From positions 1 to 64,000 of the forward strand of contig CAJOIS010000009.1 of the NCBI GenBank assembly GCA_905234645.1: a DNA stretch of 64,000 nucleotides. Reading direction: 5' to 3'. Shown piece after piece: positions 1,575 to 15,559 of the stretch. A model generated the notes under the pieces. It was not told where the DNA came from. It worked only from the letters and a program-made list of their open reading frames with translations, and did not search any database. This DNA comes from an uncultured Bacteroidales bacterium (lineage in GTDB: Bacteria > Bacteroidota > Bacteroidia > Bacteroidales > F082). A program made the translations under genes and the position numbers. Numbering within the stretch: position 1 is the first letter of the stretch; each line of letters begins with the position of its first letter.

Positions 1575-2855
1575 TCACTTTTTCACAATCGTGAAACTCC
1601 TATCATCCACAGGCTCAATGACATATCCAGGATTCAATGAGATTTTCGCATCACAATGGTTTTCGGAATAAGGTATGATGAAGTATGACCAATTATTGGC
1701 TCTAATGATGCCGTTTTTAACGTCGATGGTGCCAAAATCACCTTTTAATTGCATGGTCTTGTAGATGACTCCAATGCTGTCGTATGCAACCAAACGCTCA
1801 TTCGGGTCGAAGCCAAAATTGACATTGTTATTGGGAATTACCAGCCATTTGGATTCTGAAAAAACAGCCCTCAATGCAGCATCTTTTTTGTCACGCGCTT
1901 CGAGGCGAATTCTTTCTTTGTCAAGATATTCTTTTACATTGTAACATTCTGATATTCTTTCTATTTCAGTATCATCAACCGTATCTGGAACTATAGTCAC
2001 CGTTGAGATTAGATCGGGGATGGTCTGGCCTGAACAAATACTTTTTCTCCATTCAGGAGCCAAATCATCCAATAGAAGTCCGTAAGCGGGTCCGGAAAGA
2101 TAAGCGAATGAGTTACTAAAGCCAGTGTTATCCATTCCTTTCATGATGGCAGCAGCAACCAAACCTTTCCTAATTGCCTCATTATCATCGTTCAAAGGCA
2201 AAAGTTTGAAAGCCGTATATTCCGCCATGCCTTCGTGGCACTCAAATTGGTTCTCATTTCCATTGGGGAACATGGTTTGGCGCATTTTACGTACCGTCAT
2301 GGCATCGCGCAAACCCTCTGAAAGGTCTTTGGAATCGTCTTGCAGCAATGTCTTCAAAATGCTCAACTCGAGTTTCAGCAACAGTTCACCCTCCGCTTCA
2401 TCAAGATGCTGATTGAAAGACCCGCAAGCGGGCAAACCGATTTTCTCTTGAATGCGATGCCAACTCTCATGAATCAAAAGATGCGTATTGGTCAGCAAAT
2501 CTCGGTCGCCATCCCATATCACACAAGTCCAAATTTCACCGCAATAATTTATTGCTGTATTGGCAATTATGATGTCCTCTGGAAGTTGCCCGAAAAACAA
2601 GTTTCCTTTTTGCTCAAATGAATTCTCCTTGTTTTGCTGATTGGCAACGAGATTCCGCGTTTGCACATCAACAAACATCGTCGGACCATATAATGCTTTG
2701 CCCCACAATTTGCCGTTGTCCGAATCGGAAACCTTTTTCAAGTTCTCAAAACACGGAGCGGCTTTTTCCATTGGTTTGGAATTGGATTGTGAGCAAGAAA
2801 TACTTGAAACGCAGAGAATAAGCACTAAAACTAAACTATAAAAACTCTTTTTCAT
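1575..2855 (-). CDS. Lipoprotein with HExxH motif, possible zinc metallopeptidase
   Basis: Lipobox-like LCVSSISCSQ; HESWH within LLIHESWHRIQEKIG. Confidence 0.6.
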   Translation of the reverse strand: MKKSFYSLVLVLILCVSSISCSQSNSKPMEKAAPCFENLKKVSDSDNGKLWGKALYGPTMFVDVQTRNLVANQQNKENSFEQKGNLFFGQLPEDIIIANTAINYCGEIWTCVIWDGDRDLLTNTHLLIHESWHRIQEKIGLPACGSFNQHLDEAEGELLLKLELSILKTLLQDDSKDLSEGLRDAMTVRKMRQTMFPNGNENQFECHEGMAEYTAFKLLPLNDDNEAIRKGLVAAAIMKGMDNTGFSNSFAYLSGPAYGLLLDDLAPEWRKSICSGQTIPDLISTVTIVPDTVDDTEIERISECYNVKEYLDKERIRLEARDKKDAALRAVFSESKWLVIPNNNVNFGFDPNERLVAYDSIGVIYKTMQLKGDFGTIDVKNGIIRANNWSYFIIPYSENHCDAKISLNPGYVIEPVDDRSFTIVKK

Positions 2856-3011
2856 ATCGGATAATGTTTGTATGATTTATGGTAATACGGAGAAAAAGCG
2901 AAAAAGTTACATTAAATGCAAAAAAAAGTTGCTATTGGTGAATTTTTGCCACAAATCACTGCCAAAGCGGTTCCTGCCGCCAGCCTTTCGGATTGTTGTC
3001 ACCTACACCAA

Positions 3012-3236
3012 TTACTTTGGCAAGTTTTTTCCGTCTATCTCCTCCTCCAAAACATCATAAACATAAGCAGGGCTTTGGAAATAAAGACCAGTATCCAGAT
3101 TATTGATGGCGTTGTATGTCTTTGAATTATAGACAATATCCATGGCCTCGCGCATGGTGAGTGAACGCTCTTCCATCAACCGCGCAATCAATTCGCGGGT
3201 CAATGTTTCAACCATGAATGTTTCTTTCCCGTTCAT
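3012..3236 (-). CDS. Small protein, third member of DUF3791/DUF3990 module
   Basis: ORF starts inside ATGA overlapping the stop of the upstream ORF (3233-3236). Confidence 0.7.
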   Translation of the reverse strand: MNGKETFMVETLTRELIARLMEERSLTMREAMDIVYNSKTYNAINNLDTGLYFQSPAYVYDVLEEEIDGKNLPK

Positions 3237-3703
3237 ATCTTCTGCAACAAATTGATTGCCTTTTGGGTGGCAAATAAATACTGTATCGTAACCGTATGAT
3301 ACTTAATCTCTTCCAAAAATTGTTCCTCGGAAATGATGCCTTCCTCCACACGACGGATTTGATAGCCAACCACATCATCGGCAATGGGACCAATTACGAT
3401 GTCATAGTCGTGTGCTTGAATCCGAGTGCGATTCTTACGATTGTTCAACACAAAACGAGCCCAGTCAAGCGTATAACCGTCAAAACGAAGAGTGTTGGCC
3501 TTTGTCAATGCATCATCATCCACAAAATACTTATAGACAATCACTTCGCCTTCCCCGAACTGCTCAAATTTGCGATCTGCCTGGCGGTGTGCCACTTGCT
3601 CGTCGGGAGTAAGGTAAAACCCCAACCCAAAATCCTTCCCAACACGACTTTGGGAAAGGTCGATGTTTTCGATGACTGCGTTTGTGCCATGATAGAGAAT
3701 CAT
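3233..3703 (-). CDS. DUF3990 family protein (ADP-ribosyltransferase-like fold)
   Basis: MILYHGTNAVIENIDLSQSRVGKDFGLGFYLTPDEQVAHRQA...; YHGT and GLGFYLT motifs. Confidence 0.75.
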   Translation of the reverse strand: MILYHGTNAVIENIDLSQSRVGKDFGLGFYLTPDEQVAHRQADRKFEQFGEGEVIVYKYFVDDDALTKANTLRFDGYTLDWARFVLNNRKNRTRIQAHDYDIVIGPIADDVVGYQIRRVEEGIISEEQFLEEIKYHTVTIQYLFATQKAINLLQKI

Positions 3704-3924
3704 GCCAAAGTCCCTCCCATCCGTTTGCAATACGCAGTCAAGTCCTCTACCGTGTTCTCAAAGGAAAAGGTGTGTTCCACATCATAGAACTCATCCACAA
3801 AATCGAGGCCTTTGTATTGCTGAAGATACCGATAGGCCTGCTGTGTGGAGATTTGGTGCGCCGTGGCAAACTCTGTTATCAGAGCCACGATGTAATTAAT
3901 CTTGTCTATGATTGACTTGCTCAT
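3700..3924 (-). CDS. DUF3791 family protein
   Basis: MSKSIIDKINYIVALITEFATAHQISTQQAYRYLQQYKGLDFVDEFYDVEHTFSFENTVEDL...; ATGA overlap with next gene. Confidence 0.75.
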   Translation of the reverse strand: MSKSIIDKINYIVALITEFATAHQISTQQAYRYLQQYKGLDFVDEFYDVEHTFSFENTVEDLTAYCKRMGGTLA

Positions 3925-3986
3925 AAGTGTTTTTCTTTGCTGCAAAAATACACATTTTTGGAAAAAGAACCATAATCTAACAAAAG

Positions 3987-4016
3987 AAAAAGTCGCCGAT
4001 AATTCAGCGACTTTTT
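3987..4016. terminator. Hairpin terminator
   Basis: AAAAAGTCGC cgataattca GCGACTTTTT. Confidence 0.75.
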
Positions 4017-4037
4017 CGATTCTTTGTTCCGTTCCGG

Positions 4038-4223
4038 TCAGTTGTTCATGAAAGCAACTTGACCCATCAGCCCGGTGTTCATCGACTCGTAGGCGGCGGC
4101 GTAGTCGAACAGGTAGCGCAATACGTTGCGGCTGGGTTGCTGTTGCTCGCTCTCCCTACGGAAAACCTCCTTGATTTGTGATACCAACACGGATGAGGGG
4201 TAAGAGGTGTAACTATTTGTCAT
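4038..4223 (-). CDS. Small hypothetical protein downstream of ECF sigma factor
   Basis: 61-aa ORF co-directional with the sigma factor. Confidence 0.5.
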   Translation of the reverse strand: MTNSYTSYPSSVLVSQIKEVFRRESEQQQPSRNVLRYLFDYAAAYESMNTGLMGQVAFMNN

Positions 4224-4311
4224 AGGCGTGTTTTAGGTTTGACTTTTGACCTAATAACGCAGACAATTGGGGATTATTATTTTGCCGTGAAAAAAAAAGT
4301 TTATTTTGCTA

Positions 4312-4407
4312 TTGGCCTCTGGCTGTTGGCTATTGGCAACTTCATATAAATGGGGGACTCCCATCAATGTGAAGCTGCCAGAAGCCAGAAGCCAACGGCC
4401 AGAAGCC
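4312..4407. repeat. Imperfect self-complementary intergenic element (GGCTGTTGGC/GAAGCCAGAAGCCAAC type)
   Basis: Arms GGCAACTTCA (4335-4344) and TGAAGCTGCC (4370-4379), plus outer TTGGC/GCCAG-rich arms. Confidence 0.6.
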
Positions 4408-6926: not shown

Positions 6927-8351
6927 CTATTCGGCTGACAGTTGACGAGCCGCCATTCGGTTCACTGCATTGATATCCAATTGCGGCCAGTCCACATCTT
7001 CAGTGTCATCGAATTCCAGCAGGAAACCCATATATAAAGGGAGCGTCAGAAGCTGTCCCTCTCTACCCACATTGTAGTCGCCGAATTTGATGGCTTGATG
7101 GATGTGGTATTTCTCGGGCTTCTCCAAAACTGTGCGAATACTTTTGGCTTTGTTGGTCGTCGACTTCACTTCACAAGGGACACATTCCCCTTTTTGGCGA
7201 ATCAAAAAGTCCAATTCAAGGCCGCTGTCTTTGTGATAATAATAGAGGTTCTGGCCTTTTTTGTGCAGAAAATCTGCCATAATCCCTTCGAAGATAGCCC
7301 CTTTATAGCCAAACAGCCGGCCTTGCAGCACGTCGGCACGGGTTCCGAAATCCAACATGGCCATCAAAATTCCAATGTCGGTAAGATAAACCTTGAACAC
7401 ATCGCTTTTGGCGTTCCCGTTCAGAGGCAATTCGGGCTGTGTAGTATTGTAGCAGCGGTGAATGATTCCGGCATCTTCCAACCATTGCAAGCTTCCGGCA
7501 AATTGCGAAGCCCGACCTCCTTTCCTGACCATGGAATACTGGAATTTCTTGTTTTCTTTTGCCAACTGGGCAGGAATGGACTCAAAACACTCACGGATAT
7601 GTGGCTTGTCCTCATCATCGGCATATTTTACCATATCATCTTTGTACTCGTCGATGATGGAATCATAAACCTTGGCGACTTCCCCTATATGATTGGTCTC
7701 AAAAAAACAATTGACGGCAGCGGGCAATCCTCCAACAATGATGTAACGATAAAACAACTGCTTGAAAGCATAATGTATGCCTTCTGGAACAGGCTTCTCT
7801 TCCTGATAGCATTTGCGGACCGCCACAATAGCTTCTTGACTGATACCATTCGCCCACAGGAACTCCTCAAAGTCTAACGGATACATGGTTACGATGGTTT
7901 CATAGCCCACTGGAATAGAGTTTTTCCCAAGATGCTCATTCTTTTTCTTTCGTTTTCGTTCCCCATAGCCTTTGACGCCTAAGAGCGAACCTGTGGCGAT
8001 AACATCGTATCGGCCATCCAACTTGAATGACTTCAGCGATGTTCGGGCATCAGGACAATCCTGGATTTCATCCAAAATAATACAAGTTTTTCCAGGAACA
8101 AATTTAGCCTCGGGCATCAAAGTGGAAAGGTTCATCAGGATAGCATCCACCTTTTTGACTCCTTGAAATGCGGTTGCCTTATCTGGTTCAAGAAGAAAGT
8201 TGATATATACGACATGATCATAATGCGTCTGCGCAAACTGTTGGACAATAAAAGTCTTTCCACATTGTCGGATTCCCTTGATAACAAGTGGGTTGTGTTG
8301 TTTTTCTTCCTTCCATTGAAGCAGTGTATTCTCAATTTTTCGTTTCAGCAT
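6927..8351 (-). CDS. AAA ATPase, DUF4143 type
   Basis: VIKGIRQCGKTFIVQQFA P-loop, CIILDEIQDCPDA, C-terminal DUF4143/nuclease-like LDFLIRQKGECVPCEVKS. Confidence 0.85.
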   Translation of the reverse strand: MLKRKIENTLLQWKEEKQHNPLVIKGIRQCGKTFIVQQFAQTHYDHVVYINFLLEPDKATAFQGVKKVDAILMNLSTLMPEAKFVPGKTCIILDEIQDCPDARTSLKSFKLDGRYDVIATGSLLGVKGYGERKRKKKNEHLGKNSIPVGYETIVTMYPLDFEEFLWANGISQEAIVAVRKCYQEEKPVPEGIHYAFKQLFYRYIIVGGLPAAVNCFFETNHIGEVAKVYDSIIDEYKDDMVKYADDEDKPHIRECFESIPAQLAKENKKFQYSMVRKGGRASQFAGSLQWLEDAGIIHRCYNTTQPELPLNGNAKSDVFKVYLTDIGILMAMLDFGTRADVLQGRLFGYKGAIFEGIMADFLHKKGQNLYYYHKDSGLELDFLIRQKGECVPCEVKSTTNKAKSIRTVLEKPEKYHIHQAIKFGDYNVGREGQLLTLPLYMGFLLEFDDTEDVDWPQLDINAVNRMAARQLSAE

Positions 8352-8377: not shown

Positions 8378-8385
8378 CAAAAATA
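8378..8385 (-). promoter_or_regulatory. Putative Bacteroidota -7 box TATTTTTG for DUF4143 ATPase
   Basis: Plus-strand CAAAAATA upstream of 8351; matches TAnnTTTG. Confidence 0.5.
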
Positions 8386-8510
8386 CACTTTTTCCAACGA
8401 ATAATTCCATTTTCTTACACTTTTTCAAACGAATATTTTCAAATCATTACACTTTTTTAAACGAATTGTTCGATATTCTTACAGTTTTTTAAACGAATAC
8501 TTCAATTAAA
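8383..8510. repeat. Four tandem 32-bp repeats upstream of DUF4143 ATPase
   Basis: Unit starts 8383, 8415, 8447, 8479; consensus TTACACTTTTTyAAACGAATa... Confidence 0.95.
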
Positions 8511-11383: not shown

Positions 11384-11904
11384 AATCAACCGAAATAAAC
11401 CATCCTTTAAGCGAGCGGCAGCAGAAGGTCGTCGATACGCTGATCGGTCTCGGCATCGAGTTCGACATCAAGTTTCACCCGCCGTTGGGTTCCATCGAGG
11501 AGTCGCTGGCCTACTGGGGCAAGTTCGAAGCCACGCACTGCAAGAACCTGTTTTTCAGGAACCACAAGGGCAACAAGCATTACCTGGTCGTCTTCGAGTG
11601 CATGCACCAGATGGACATCCACGACTTGGAGCAGCGCCTACACCAAGGCAAGCTGACCTTCGCCTCGGAGGCGAGGATGGAGAAATACCTCGGCCTGAAA
11701 CCGGGCAGCGTCTCCCCTTTCGGCCTCGTCAACGACGCAGAGCACCACGTCCACCTCTTCATCGACAAGAACCTCCAGAACGCCCCCCGATTAAGCTTCC
11801 ACCCCAATGACAACACTGGGACGATTATCATTAGTCAGGAGGATTTTATAAAGTTCCTTGATGCTATGGGGAACTCATACGAATTCATTGAACTGTACGA
11901 TTGA
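11380..11904 (+). CDS. Prolyl-tRNA editing/YbaK-type deacylase domain protein (ProX-like)
   Basis: FHPPLGSIEESLAYWGKFEATHCKNLFFRNHKGNKHYLVVFE...LGLKPGSVSPFGLVND. Confidence 0.8.
   Translation: MKSTEINHPLSERQQKVVDTLIGLGIEFDIKFHPPLGSIEESLAYWGKFEATHCKNLFFRNHKGNKHYLVVFECMHQMDIHDLEQRLHQGKLTFASEARMEKYLGLKPGSVSPFGLVNDAEHHVHLFIDKNLQNAPRLSFHPNDNTGTIIISQEDFIKFLDAMGNSYEFIELYD
11815..11849. repeat. 35-bp direct repeat, copy 1 (inside deacylase 3' end)
   Basis: ACTGGGACGATTATCATTAGTCAGGAGGATTTTAT. Confidence 0.9.
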
Positions 11905-11941: not shown

Positions 11942-13231
11942 CTAATTTTTCAAGCATCCTATCGGGACTACCATCACGCCGTCAGTCCTCAAATATGCAT
12001 ATTGTCCGACAGCCGTTAGCACCATCTTGAATGACGGTTTCTTCATTTTTGTTGTGTCAATCATATCGGCCAAGGAATTCAGATTGGAAGCTCCTTCTTC
12101 AATGAGAGTCTCACCGCCAAGTTTTATCTCTATCAGACCATAACTGCCATTCCTCAAATGAACGACGGCATCACATTCGAGACCATTCTTGTCACGATAA
12201 TGAAACACATCGCCCTCGTTGGCATCAGCATATACACGCAAATCCCTTACGCATAGCGTCTCAAAGAGCAGACCCATTGTTTCCAAATCATTCAGCAAAT
12301 CGTTAGGTCCCAAGCCCAATGCAGCAATGGCAATGGAGGGATCAACGAAATAGCGAGTGTCACTAGTTCGTATTGCTGTCTTTGAACGTAGATTGGGATT
12401 CCACGCGGGCATGTCCTCGATGACAAAGATTTTTTTCAGAGCCTTTATGTAAGATGCAACAGTTTCATCGCTCATCCCTTCTGGCTCGTTAGTTTTCATA
12501 TCTGCAACGATAGTGGGAACACCCGCCATAGCACCTTGAAGCCGTGCATAAGAACGCATCAGCCGCTTTGCCCGATGTTGGTCTCTCGCCACCCCATCAA
12601 CCCTTGAAATATCAGAACGAGTGATGGCTTCGAAATACTCTTTAACTTGACTAAGTGCCGCCTTGGCCGTCTTCTTGTTCAACGACTTGGGCCATCCTCC
12701 ACGACAAATGGCAAAAGCGACATCCTCCATCACCAGAGAATTGGTGCCATCCACCTTCTCTAGATGAGAAAAGAGTTCGCCAAGACTGACATCGCCTGAC
12801 GATTCTCCAGACTCCCATAGCGACATGGGGCGCATCGTAAGCCATGCAAAACGCCCTGCTCCCGTATGATGGATTTTCGAGTCATCGGCAGGAACAGCAG
12901 AACCAGTCAGCATAAAAAGGCCGTCATCTTTTCTATGGTCTGTCTCAAAACGAACAGCATCCCACAACTGAGGGGCAATCTGCCATTCGTCAATCAGTCT
13001 TGGTGTGTCGCCTTGAAGCAACCGCTTTATGTTGGTTTCTGCCAATTGCAGGTTCTGAGCCATCGTTGCAGGATCATCCATATAAAGGATACTTTTGGCT
13101 TGCTGCTCAGCCGTTGTCGTCTTGCCACAAGCTTTCGGCCCTTCTATCAGAACGGCTCCCATAGCATCCAACTTTTCCTCTAAAAGCCTATCGGCAATTC
13201 TCTTTCTGTATCCAATGCTGTTCTCTGCCAT
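11942..13231 (-). CDS. AAA ATPase, DUF4143 type (second copy)
   Basis: VLIEGPKACGKTTTAEQQA P-loop; RLIDEWQIAPQLWDAVR; C-terminal LECDAVVHLRNGSYGLIEIKLGG. Confidence 0.85.
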   Translation of the reverse strand: MAENSIGYRKRIADRLLEEKLDAMGAVLIEGPKACGKTTTAEQQAKSILYMDDPATMAQNLQLAETNIKRLLQGDTPRLIDEWQIAPQLWDAVRFETDHRKDDGLFMLTGSAVPADDSKIHHTGAGRFAWLTMRPMSLWESGESSGDVSLGELFSHLEKVDGTNSLVMEDVAFAICRGGWPKSLNKKTAKAALSQVKEYFEAITRSDISRVDGVARDQHRAKRLMRSYARLQGAMAGVPTIVADMKTNEPEGMSDETVASYIKALKKIFVIEDMPAWNPNLRSKTAIRTSDTRYFVDPSIAIAALGLGPNDLLNDLETMGLLFETLCVRDLRVYADANEGDVFHYRDKNGLECDAVVHLRNGSYGLIEIKLGGETLIEEGASNLNSLADMIDTTKMKKPSFKMVLTAVGQYAYLRTDGVMVVPIGCLKN

Positions 13232-13256: not shown

Positions 13257-13264
13257 CAAAAATA
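13257..13264 (-). promoter_or_regulatory. Putative -7 box TATTTTTG for second DUF4143 ATPase
   Basis: Plus-strand CAAAAATA upstream of 13231. Confidence 0.5.
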
Positions 13265-13302
13265 GGCTATTTTCTTTAAAATGAAAGAATTATTTCAAAT
13301 TA

Positions 13303-13371
13303 TTTGGTTATTTGGCGCGATTCTGTTTGGTTATTTGGCGCGATTTCGTTTGGTTATTTGGCGTATTACTT
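13303..13371. repeat. Three tandem 23-bp repeats upstream of DUF4143 ATPase
   Basis: TTTGGTTATTTGGCGCGATTCTG / ...GCGCGATTTCG / ...GCGTATTACTT at 13303, 13326, 13349. Confidence 0.95.
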
Positions 13372-13978
13372 ATTGAATTACTGGGACGATTATCATTAGC
13401 CAGGAGGATTTTATTTGCCTATCGGTTATTGGTTCTTCAACATCAGGAAGATGCACCACGAACAACAAAGTCTTCGTCGGCGTGTGAATGGAAGTTTGGA
13501 TGTTGTCTTCCGATAATGTCAAGTATTTAATCGCGTTATGGATGGTAAACTCCTCCCACTTTTGGAGCCAACCATCCTTGTTGTAATAAGGCAATTTGTC
13601 GGGTATGATGAATATTTGGAAATAAGGAATGTTAGCGCATCGGATGTTTGCCGTTTCGCCCAGCATGTTCTCAAAATAATTGTTTGAGTTTTGGGAATAG
13701 TTCTGCATGACAAACTTGACTCCAATTCCCGCCAAAGGCTGTCCGTGACGTAGAATTGTGATGTCAACGACCTTGTCAATGTAGCGACCATCCAACTTCA
13801 TCTCCTTGCCTTTTCCTATGCCCAAAGAGCAAATTGAATAGCCGTCACCCAACCGTTCTTTCAGGTCTTTTGCGATTGCACCGTGAAGAATCTTCAACTT
13901 TTCATTGCTCCGCGACCCCGTTTCAAGGAACTTCTTAAAAGAGTTCCCGACTACCTTTAGAAATTCTTGATTGTCCAT
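13370..13978 (-). CDS. Putative type II restriction endonuclease with possibly replaced C-terminus
   Basis: Overlaps the methylase 3' end; RYIDKVVDITIL...GVKFVMQNYSQNSNNYFENMLGETANIR; last residues SSWLMIIVPVIQ are encoded by the duplicated deacylase fragment. Confidence 0.6.
   Translation of the reverse strand: MDNQEFLKVVGNSFKKFLETGSRSNEKLKILHGAIAKDLKERLGDGYSICSLGIGKGKEMKLDGRYIDKVVDITILRHGQPLAGIGVKFVMQNYSQNSNNYFENMLGETANIRCANIPYFQIFIIPDKLPYYNKDGWLQKWEEFTIHNAIKYLTLSEDNIQTSIHTPTKTLLFVVHLPDVEEPITDRQIKSSWLMIIVPVIQ
13380..13414. repeat. 35-bp direct repeat, copy 2
   Basis: ACTGGGACGATTATCATTAGCCAGGAGGATTTTAT, 34/35 identical to 11815-11849. Confidence 0.9.
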
Positions 13979-15386
13979 ATTTTTCCGTCAGTTTATAGTT
14001 TAAATATTGTTCTAAATCCTTTGAGGCGAATGTGTAATAGCCTCCACTCTTGTAATTTTTCAGAAGTTTTATGTAATTCATAAATTCTTCTGAATGAATC
14101 AGTTGCTTGATTGTATCAAATTCAATTTCGGTCAGAATGTAAAGGCCGCTGTATAAGCCTTTTCCTTTCGCGACTGGCTCTAGTTTTATGCTGCTTAGGT
14201 CTTTGAGAATTGTGTTGATGGCATACTTTTCCTTTGAAACATCCTTCAATGCTTGAGTGCGACCAAAAAGATACCAATACTTATCCTCTTCAATGTCTCT
14301 CTTTGACAGTTTGTCTTTGTTGTCAAGCAAATGACAATATGCTTGTTCGTTTTGTTTAAAGACCTCCAAAGGAACTGGTTTCCCTTTTTCATCATATGGA
14401 TAGATGCACCTTCTCCATTTGCCAGTCGATGCTTTCAAAATATCAATAGTTCCTCCTGTAAAATCAAAGTCGCCAATAAACACCTTATCAGCAAGGGTTG
14501 CAAAGCCGTTTTTGACCGAAACATACGGATAACCGTATGTGGTTTTCACATTTTTGAGCAACGCAAGGCTTTCTTTTTTAGAGAAATAGAAGTTCTTCCC
14601 AATTTGAATATCAGCATAAGACAATTCGTCTTGTAACACTGCCCTTCTTTCCGTTTCATCAAACACACAGTATTCGATACTGTCGAATGTCTTTGTCTTA
14701 CTAAACCGTGAAATAAGAGTGTATGTGGTGGCGTCAAACGGCTGAAAATGTCCCAAATCAATGACTCCTGACAAGTTTTGGTGAAGAATGACATAGTTTC
14801 TAAGATTGATTCCAGCCAAACTACCTAGCCACGAACTTGGTGTAATTAAACACATCAAGCCGTCTTTTGCCAACATATTGAAACCGATTTCAAAAAAGAC
14901 GATAAACAGATCTGTCATACCTCCCTCGGCGAACTTGAACTTCTTTACAGCCTTGTAACTGTCGTCAAGATTATGCACTCGCACATAAGGCGGATTACCA
15001 AACACATAATCCATTTTGCCGTTGAAGCGCTCAACGGTCAGCGTATCTGCGTTCAGGATATTCCATTGTACGCCTTGTATTCCGTATCCTACTGCGACTT
15101 CGTTGAGGTTTTGGATGCAAGCATTACATTCAACGGCATCCAATTCAATGCCATGAACATAAGTTTCCAATTCCAGTTTTAATTCAGACAAATCCCGTTT
15201 CTGTGAGAGAAACAAAGAGCAATATCTTCTCACAATTTCTGAGAGAAATGCTCCATCGCCACAACTGTTGTCAATGACATGTTTCTGTAAAATATTGGGA
15301 TTGTTATAATCGCCAAAATCAAGGATGGTTTTGACAATATAATCGGGCGTATATACCCTTCCGTGCTGTTTGACTGCCTTTGCCAT
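13935..15386 (-). CDS. N6-adenine DNA methyltransferase (Eco57I/TaqI-like)
   Basis: DNSCGDGAFLSEIVRRY motif I, VFGNPPYVRVHNLDD motif IV; ATG at 15386. Confidence 0.85.
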   Translation of the reverse strand: MAKAVKQHGRVYTPDYIVKTILDFGDYNNPNILQKHVIDNSCGDGAFLSEIVRRYCSLFLSQKRDLSELKLELETYVHGIELDAVECNACIQNLNEVAVGYGIQGVQWNILNADTLTVERFNGKMDYVFGNPPYVRVHNLDDSYKAVKKFKFAEGGMTDLFIVFFEIGFNMLAKDGLMCLITPSSWLGSLAGINLRNYVILHQNLSGVIDLGHFQPFDATTYTLISRFSKTKTFDSIEYCVFDETERRAVLQDELSYADIQIGKNFYFSKKESLALLKNVKTTYGYPYVSVKNGFATLADKVFIGDFDFTGGTIDILKASTGKWRRCIYPYDEKGKPVPLEVFKQNEQAYCHLLDNKDKLSKRDIEEDKYWYLFGRTQALKDVSKEKYAINTILKDLSSIKLEPVAKGKGLYSGLYILTEIEFDTIKQLIHSEEFMNYIKLLKNYKSGGYYTFASKDLEQYLNYKLTEKYGQSRISKGSRELF

Positions 15387-15418
15387 ACGCGATATGATTT
15401 TGCGTTTGGCAATCTGTC

Positions 15419-15559
15419 TCCTACGAACACAGTGCGTGGGCAATTTTGCCCTAACACTGCGGTCGTAGGAAACCGAATTACACAGACAAAACGCCCACGC
15501 TGTGGGTGTTTACAATCTGTTTTCGGTGTAATCTTGAAATTTCCTACGTTTCAGTGTTA
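15419..15559. repeat. Three-arm self-complementary leader (competing hairpins)
   Basis: Arm A 15419-15443 pairs with arm B 15446-15470 (20/25); arm B TAACACTG..CGTAGGAAA (15452-15472) also pairs with arm C TTTCCTACG..CAGTGTTA (15540-15559). Confidence 0.75.

Follow-up and report, generated by a model that had tools for sequence, protein, structure and literature searches.

Private tandem arrays upstream of DUF4143 ATPase genes are likely autoregulatory operators

We found that many bacterial DUF4143 ATPase genes are preceded by a short tandem array of their own. From the sequences, it is likely that each array is a cognate autoregulatory operator in the promoter of the ATPase gene, and the autoregulation is probably repressive. 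Judged from the same comparisons, the ATPase with its private, putative operator array is a real, old, and general cognate pairing. In the mechanism that we propose, the ATPase unites three parts in one chain, namely the AAA+ domain, the winged helix, and the PD-(D/E)XK-like domain at the C-terminus, and the winged helix would read a core of some 16 bp that recurs with a period of 23 bp (32-33 bp in the other clade). As the core is repeated at a fixed period, several subunits could sit at constant spacing beside the promoter, and, bound to the array, they would regulate the gene that encodes them, most likely as repressors. The specificity block of the core co-varies with the recognition helix; thus, each paralog would have a private switch. 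The array and the gene would be inherited and transferred as a self-contained cassette of about 1.4 kb, and in a possible defence role the switch would be released on infection. The pairing, the period by clade, the core and spacer anatomy, the promoter register, the covariation, and the joint transfer were shown by sequence statistics; actual binding and an oligomer on the DNA are inferred.

The stretch of DNA that we analysed (the window, 64,000 nucleotides) contains two of these ATPases, designated A and B. ATPase B (positions 11942-13231, minus strand, 429 aa) has AAA_14, a winged helix, and a DUF4143/PD-(D/E)XK-like domain, according to Pfam and a structural model. The preliminary description had claimed a 3 x 23-bp array upstream of this gene, and we confirmed both the array and its placement. 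TTTGGTTATTTGGCG starts at 13303, 13326, and 13349 with an exact 23-bp period, TRF reports 13303-13363 (period 23, 94% matches, score 108), and the array lies 63-131 bp 5' of the ATG. The score is the second in the window, below that of the array at 8384-8503 (142). Read in register, that is, on the minus strand in the orientation of the gene, the unit is GCCAAATAACCAAAC plus a spacer. The sequence and the in-register alignment, with TRF for the first two, gave three units on this strand: the distal unit 1 (13340-13362) with the core GCCAAATAACCAAACG and the spacer AAATCGC, unit 2 (13317-13339; GCCAAATAACCAAACAGAATCGC), and the promoter-proximal unit 3 (13294-13316), in which the core GCCAAATAACCAAAT is retained and the spacer has diverged, like the last unit of other arrays. 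The 15-mer TTTGGTTATTTGGCG has exactly three copies in the 2.59-Mb assembly, all in this array; as the scan of the whole assembly gave no other exact site, no regulon was seen. Near matches with two mismatches numbered six, against three for the reversed control pattern, which are small numbers from one genome. An Eco57I-like adenine methylase (Pfam; 13935-15443) and a 202-aa ORF with no known domain (13370-13978) adjoin ATPase B and are possibly a restriction system outside the ATPase cassette.

ATPase A (6927-8351, minus strand, 474 aa, AAA_14 and DUF4143 in Pfam) belongs in the tree to the clade with periods of 32-33 bp. Its array (8384-8503, minus strand) has a period of 32 and 3.8 copies of the unit TTCGTTTGAAAAAGTGTAA plus a spacer in TRF, and in the sequence the last unit is fused with the -7 element. 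This array is also private, differing from that of ATPase B in both sequence and period. The ATPases had been called unrelated, which is right at the clade level, as the tree places them in two long-separated clades. The arrays had also been called exactly periodic; this is true of the spacing but not of the sequence, the array of ATPase A being only 79% uniform.

In the source assembly, seven of the eight DUF4143 genes have a visible tandem array directly 5', all differing in sequence. Other genomes of the genus have up to 52 DUF4143 genes; G015, G019, and related genomes carry about 50 each in 2.7-3.5 Mb. We called an array when the TRF score was 60 or more in the 250 bp upstream, and compared 126 unique ATPases with 238 control genes from the same loci. 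Enrichment over other genes, on which the pairing had been staked beforehand, was clear: arrays precede 61 ATPases (48%) and seven controls (3%; Fisher p = 6e-26), and at least three of the seven control hits (L108, L110, and L119) are, by position, neighbours that share the intergenic array of an ATPase. Two classes of period were seen, one of 22-23 bp and one of 32-33 bp. When they were compared with the phylogeny of the 126 proteins, as the preliminary description had proposed, the period followed the clade; all 15 members of the fully supported clade of ATPase B have a period of 23 bp, and 23 of the 39 members of the clade of ATPase A have 32-33 bp. About half of the tested ATPases are without a TRF array and are concentrated in particular subfamilies; thus, a protein of this fold can do without an array.

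When GTDB genomes were scanned with the alignment of the ATPase B clade, 80 relatives were found in Bacteroidota, Bacillota, Spirochaetota, Actinomycetota, Verrucomicrobiota, and Pseudomonadota. Where enough upstream DNA was available, 67 of 77 had a TRF array with a score of at least 60, and the period was 23 or 46 bp in nearly all. Among distant plasmid homologues (about 25-64% identity), arrays of 22-23 bp were found in Bacteroides, Collinsella, Prosthecochloris, Rhizobium, and Spartinivicinus; those of Lentilactobacillus and Actinomyces were recognised by eye, and no array was visible in Thermus, Moraxella, Agrobacterium, and Treponema succinifaciens. Among relatives of ATPase A, those of Fusobacterium, Vibrio, Acinetobacter, and Criblamydia have arrays with a period of about 32 bp, and those of Ruminococcus and Vescimonas have weaker ones; those in Parabacteroides and Glaesserella gave no TRF array. 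Arrays of both period classes combined occur in at least nine bacterial phyla. The earlier proposal of a general, paralog-specific pairing of ATPase and repeat is thus strongly supported by the enrichment, the clade-specific period, the conservation across phyla, and the cognate specificity described below.

The DUF4143/AAA_14 ATPases, which we take to be COG1373, have clear domain assignments; PF13635 and PF13173 score 109.1 and 49.8 bits in the window ATPase against curated cut-offs of 28.1 and 27. Both window ATPases match the PDC-S01 profile of PADLOC at full length (1.1e-63 for ATPase B, where the match covers residues 8-427, and 6e-155 for ATPase A). In an alignment of 15 sequences, Walker A/B and an E-x-D...E-x-K motif are invariant; in ATPase B this nuclease-like motif is E352-x-D354 ... 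E368-x-K370 (12122-12178, minus strand). In an AF2 model from the 15 sequences, of moderate quality (pLDDT 77), the AAA+ core is followed by helices, by a winged helix made up of helices 218-230, 238-248, and 255-268 and subsequent strands, and by the C-terminal domain that contains E-x-D...E-x-K. The top Foldseek match of the model is the archaeal AAA+ protein SSO1545 (PDB 2fna; E 1.5e-4, TM-score 0.24, 14% identity), followed by Card1/Cdn1 nucleases with low TM-scores, which probably match the model through a nuclease domain; a sequence search of PDB gave no convincing relative. By the invariant motifs and the fold matches, an ATPase is fused to a PD-(D/E)XK-like domain with a predicted nuclease activity, and the same make-up, ATPase plus PD-(D/E)XK, is given for PDC-S01 in the passages on it in [PMC12988326]. 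There, PDC-S01 is the fourth most common defence across prokaryotes and most candidates of its type still await validation, and in the corresponding passage of [PMC13356809] it is the individual locus found most often in genomes from the rumen. No mechanism of PDC-S01 was found in the literature searched. The gene, which is very common in bacteria, is a candidate ATPase-nuclease for defence against viruses.

We aligned 91 arrays of the 23-bp clade in register and used the best 86 for position statistics. The core of the unit spans about 16 bp, approximately G-C-C-A-A-[ACG]-[TC]-N-N-C-[CG]-[AG]-A-A-[TC]-[AG], with an AT-rich 7-bp spacer after it (91 arrays); the consensus positions are partly a result of the motif-based alignment, and the period was confirmed by TRF, which is independent of the motif. 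In the five-base block at core positions 8-12, the difference between arrays is 3.9-8.4 times that within arrays, and at spacer positions 17-23 the ratio is 0.6-1.4 (86 arrays). The last copy of the arrays retains the core and not the spacer. Among the 86 arrays, 65 different cores (positions 1-13) were found, and relatives differ in copy number, with 2 to 8 units.

The arrays are also in register with promoter elements, which we predicted from the consensus. In Bacillota and Actinomycetota, 16 of 23 genes (1.3 expected) have a -35-like hexamer that begins within positions 19-22 of the last unit (position 20 in the Bacillota register), and the -10 box follows 16-18 bp beyond it. In Bacteroidota, the -7 element TAnnTTTG was found in 52 of 55 cases (3 expected), most often starting at 52-55 from the start of the last unit; that of ATPase B (TATTTTTG, 13257-13264, minus strand) starts at position 53 and is within this family register. 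In seven cases from Spirochaetota, a TATAAT-like box tends to come directly after the last unit. Arrays of the 33-bp clade often have a last unit that merges with the -7 element, as in ATPase A, where GGAAAAAGTG is directly followed by TATTTTTG. Judged by these predicted elements, the sites keep a constant register to the promoter of their own gene, as is characteristic of an autoregulatory operator, and this register ties the array to the ATPase's own predicted promoter. The overlap with core promoter elements would favour repression over activation; as the distance between array and promoter differs between phyla, however, the position does not by itself reveal the sign of the regulation.

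The arrays are transferred together with the genes. In several close pairs of near-identical ATPases from different genomes, a single homology block extends from the array to the stop codon or at most about 40 bp past it, with unrelated flanks (L059/L223, with 97% DNA identity from -151 to +1332 for a gene of 1293; L173/L224; and L177/L197); other pairs are syntenic or share longer blocks (L169/L171, L217/L218, L074/L229, and L162/L164). One homology block with unrelated flanks indicates that array and gene were transferred as one cassette of about 1.4 kb. The array might then be the end of a single-gene mobile element, with an excision or insertion site used by the ATPase-nuclease. Besides the block itself, this is consistent with flanking direct duplications being commoner at ATPases (27 of 124) than at other genes (5 of 178) and with the S4-gene site, of which empty and filled versions both exist in the genus. 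However, the flanking duplications are mostly absent and range from 16 to 310 bp where present, and neither a fixed-length target duplication nor terminal inverted repeats were found. Inverted flanks (7 of 124 ATPases and 0 of 178 controls) gave no pattern, array units occur also 3' of the gene in only one of 61 cases, and the promoter register is not expected of a mere transposon end. We consider this reading unlikely, and a transposon or insertion sequence of the ordinary kind was rejected because of the downstream copies (1/61) and the variable, mostly missing duplications. The single gene with its own array units downstream is L054 (G019), where they lie 57-125 bp past the stop codon. At the S4-gene site, L293, L294, L296, L297, L300, and L302 carry inserts of about 1.3-2 kb between the S4-domain gene and its neighbour, and the ATPase HMM has no match within these inserts.

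The site of ATPase B offers a further comparison. Just past its array, a fragment of the 3' end of a ybaK-like gene (13383-13418, plus strand; a copy of about 11818-11853) was recognised in the comparison of flanking duplications, and from its sequence we read it as a trace of insertion or recombination. At the ybaK site of the genus (L312-L322 and L327), copies of the final 50-200 bp of the ybaK-like gene occur up to several times downstream, between different inserted genes, and by this pattern the site is an insertion hot spot. In another genome (L319), a non-ATPase gene too lies between such duplicates, and arrays with no adjoining ATPase, with the window core or one base off, occur at L319 (2010-2070) and L327 (3944-4052); these arrays are either remnants or serve some separate function. 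The duplicates around a non-ATPase gene and the gene-less arrays fit homology-assisted integration better than transposition driven by the ATPase. In L316 (G102:C6:21000-27500), at 2200-4320, an IS with a 518-aa transposase-like ORF lies inside the array of an ATPase B orthologue, and a duplication of promoter and array, over 100 bp long, is found on either side of it. Long duplications of this kind are known for the IS1634 type.

The preliminary description had also suggested a self/non-self or regulatory system. The regulatory part is supported by the fixed promoter register; the self/non-self part remains a hypothesis. If the array marked self, the ATPase-nuclease would tell DNA with the cognate array from foreign DNA, or would stay sequestered there until infection. 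In favour of this are the PDC-S01 annotation of both window ATPases, the many paralogs with private specificities, and the divergence of members of the 23-bp clade that live in one genome: none of 27 pairs is at least 70% identical (maximum 66%; p = 0.023), and near-identical members occur between genomes. However, the site is not clearly depleted elsewhere in the genome, exclusion of identical cores within a genome was not significant (0 observed and 1.0 expected among 46 genes; p = 0.32), and the promoter register is explained without self marking. In viral contigs, no decoy array with three cores was found, only one chance-like two-core match inside a coding frame, and we therefore set the decoy reading aside. 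Taken together, a self mark seems quite doubtful. Seven relatives of the ATPase are themselves found in viral contigs (L339-L345); five of the six loci examined have a 23-bp upstream array in TRF, and the sixth (L339) has only a weak in-register array. A broader speculation, which we rate as rather improbable, is that each PDC-S01 gene forms a single-gene unit, either selfish or defensive, with a private array that would both switch the gene and hold the ATPase-nuclease as an inactive phased oligomer. Infection or an incoming cognate copy would disturb this state, leading to mutual exclusion of copies with the same specificity, a DNA-encoded code of self-recognition, and many orthogonal locks per genome.

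The operator reading requires that the ATPase itself reads the core, and we examined this by covariation in 116 array/protein pairs with 58 independent sister pairs, permuting within strata of overall divergence. Changes in residues 236-262 of the winged helix (12446-12526 in ATPase B, minus strand; recognition helix from 255 in the model) follow the number of changes in the core (p = 1.1e-5 compared with the remaining protein). Among all 15-residue windows of the protein, 243-257 performs best, and the spacer control was negative (p = 0.13). The top pair, residue 256 with DNA position 11, has p = 8.9e-6 among 2044 tests. Partial correlation with core distance (5968 pairs) is +0.245 for the winged helix, +0.10 for residues 161-217, and -0.04 to -0.08 for other regions, and an earlier test with 42 pairs agrees. 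A first plain MI attempt was dominated by near-invariant columns, and in an MI/shuffle version the HTH was not clearly enriched (5 of the top 30, 3.1 expected). The sister-pair and stratified tests replaced MI after the first results were known, and their p values should be read accordingly. Recognition of the array core by the ATPase's own winged helix is supported by these comparisons. A separate host regulator could instead bind the array, with the ATPase merely as its target gene, since transcription factors bind tandem sites too. This is very improbable, as the core specificity co-varies with the winged helix more than with the other ATPase domains, the array and the ATPase move between genomes as one block and recur together in several phyla, and the site has no second exact copy in the genome. 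A neutral minisatellite from replication slippage, which would fit the variable copy number, is practically refuted, because a core kept beside a free spacer, last unit included, indicates a selected protein site, the period is fixed by clade, likewise in other phyla, and the array is in register with the promoter. A CRISPR array, with identical repeats and unique spacers of about 30 bp, does not match the 2-8 copies of a 16-bp core with a 7-bp AT-rich spacer, and no cas domain was found by Pfam in eight neighbouring ORFs.

The pairing of array and gene and its specificity appear to be unreported in the literature searched. In open-access papers, a narrow search, which is weak evidence of absence, gave none that joins DUF4143 to tandem repeats, and the passages on PDC-S01 cited above contain nothing on operator arrays. 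BrickBuilt, a MITE-like element of Porphyromonas gingivalis, shares with the ATPase arrays the 23-nt tandem repeats in Bacteroidota, and its repeats have promoter activity; unlike them, its copies are dispersed with terminal inverted repeats, and the word ATPase is absent from that paper [PMC4596501]; the element was set aside.

The arrays provide a predicted DNA ligand for each protein and a predicted reading helix (236-262, above all 255-256). Binding, autoregulation, and the defence role of PDC-S01 thereby become directly testable, dozens of candidate orthogonal protein/operator pairs are now available, and the whole forms a large natural library for decoding winged-helix specificity.

Among known systems, iterons with their Rep initiator and other phased operator arrays consist of short direct repeats that are regularly spaced, about 22 bp apart, and as with iterons, the repeats here are apparently read by a winged helix of the adjacently encoded protein. 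Unlike iterons, the ATPase arrays are chromosomal, stand in promoter register, and differ in specificity between paralogs within one genome. The operators of toxin-antitoxin and restriction control systems are autoregulated, and the ATPase cassettes resemble them in having a defence-type gene, its own promoter, and a self-encoded putative DNA binder. Unlike in those systems, a single gene provides the ATPase, the predicted DNA reader, and the nuclease-like domain, and no antitoxin or controller gene travels along.
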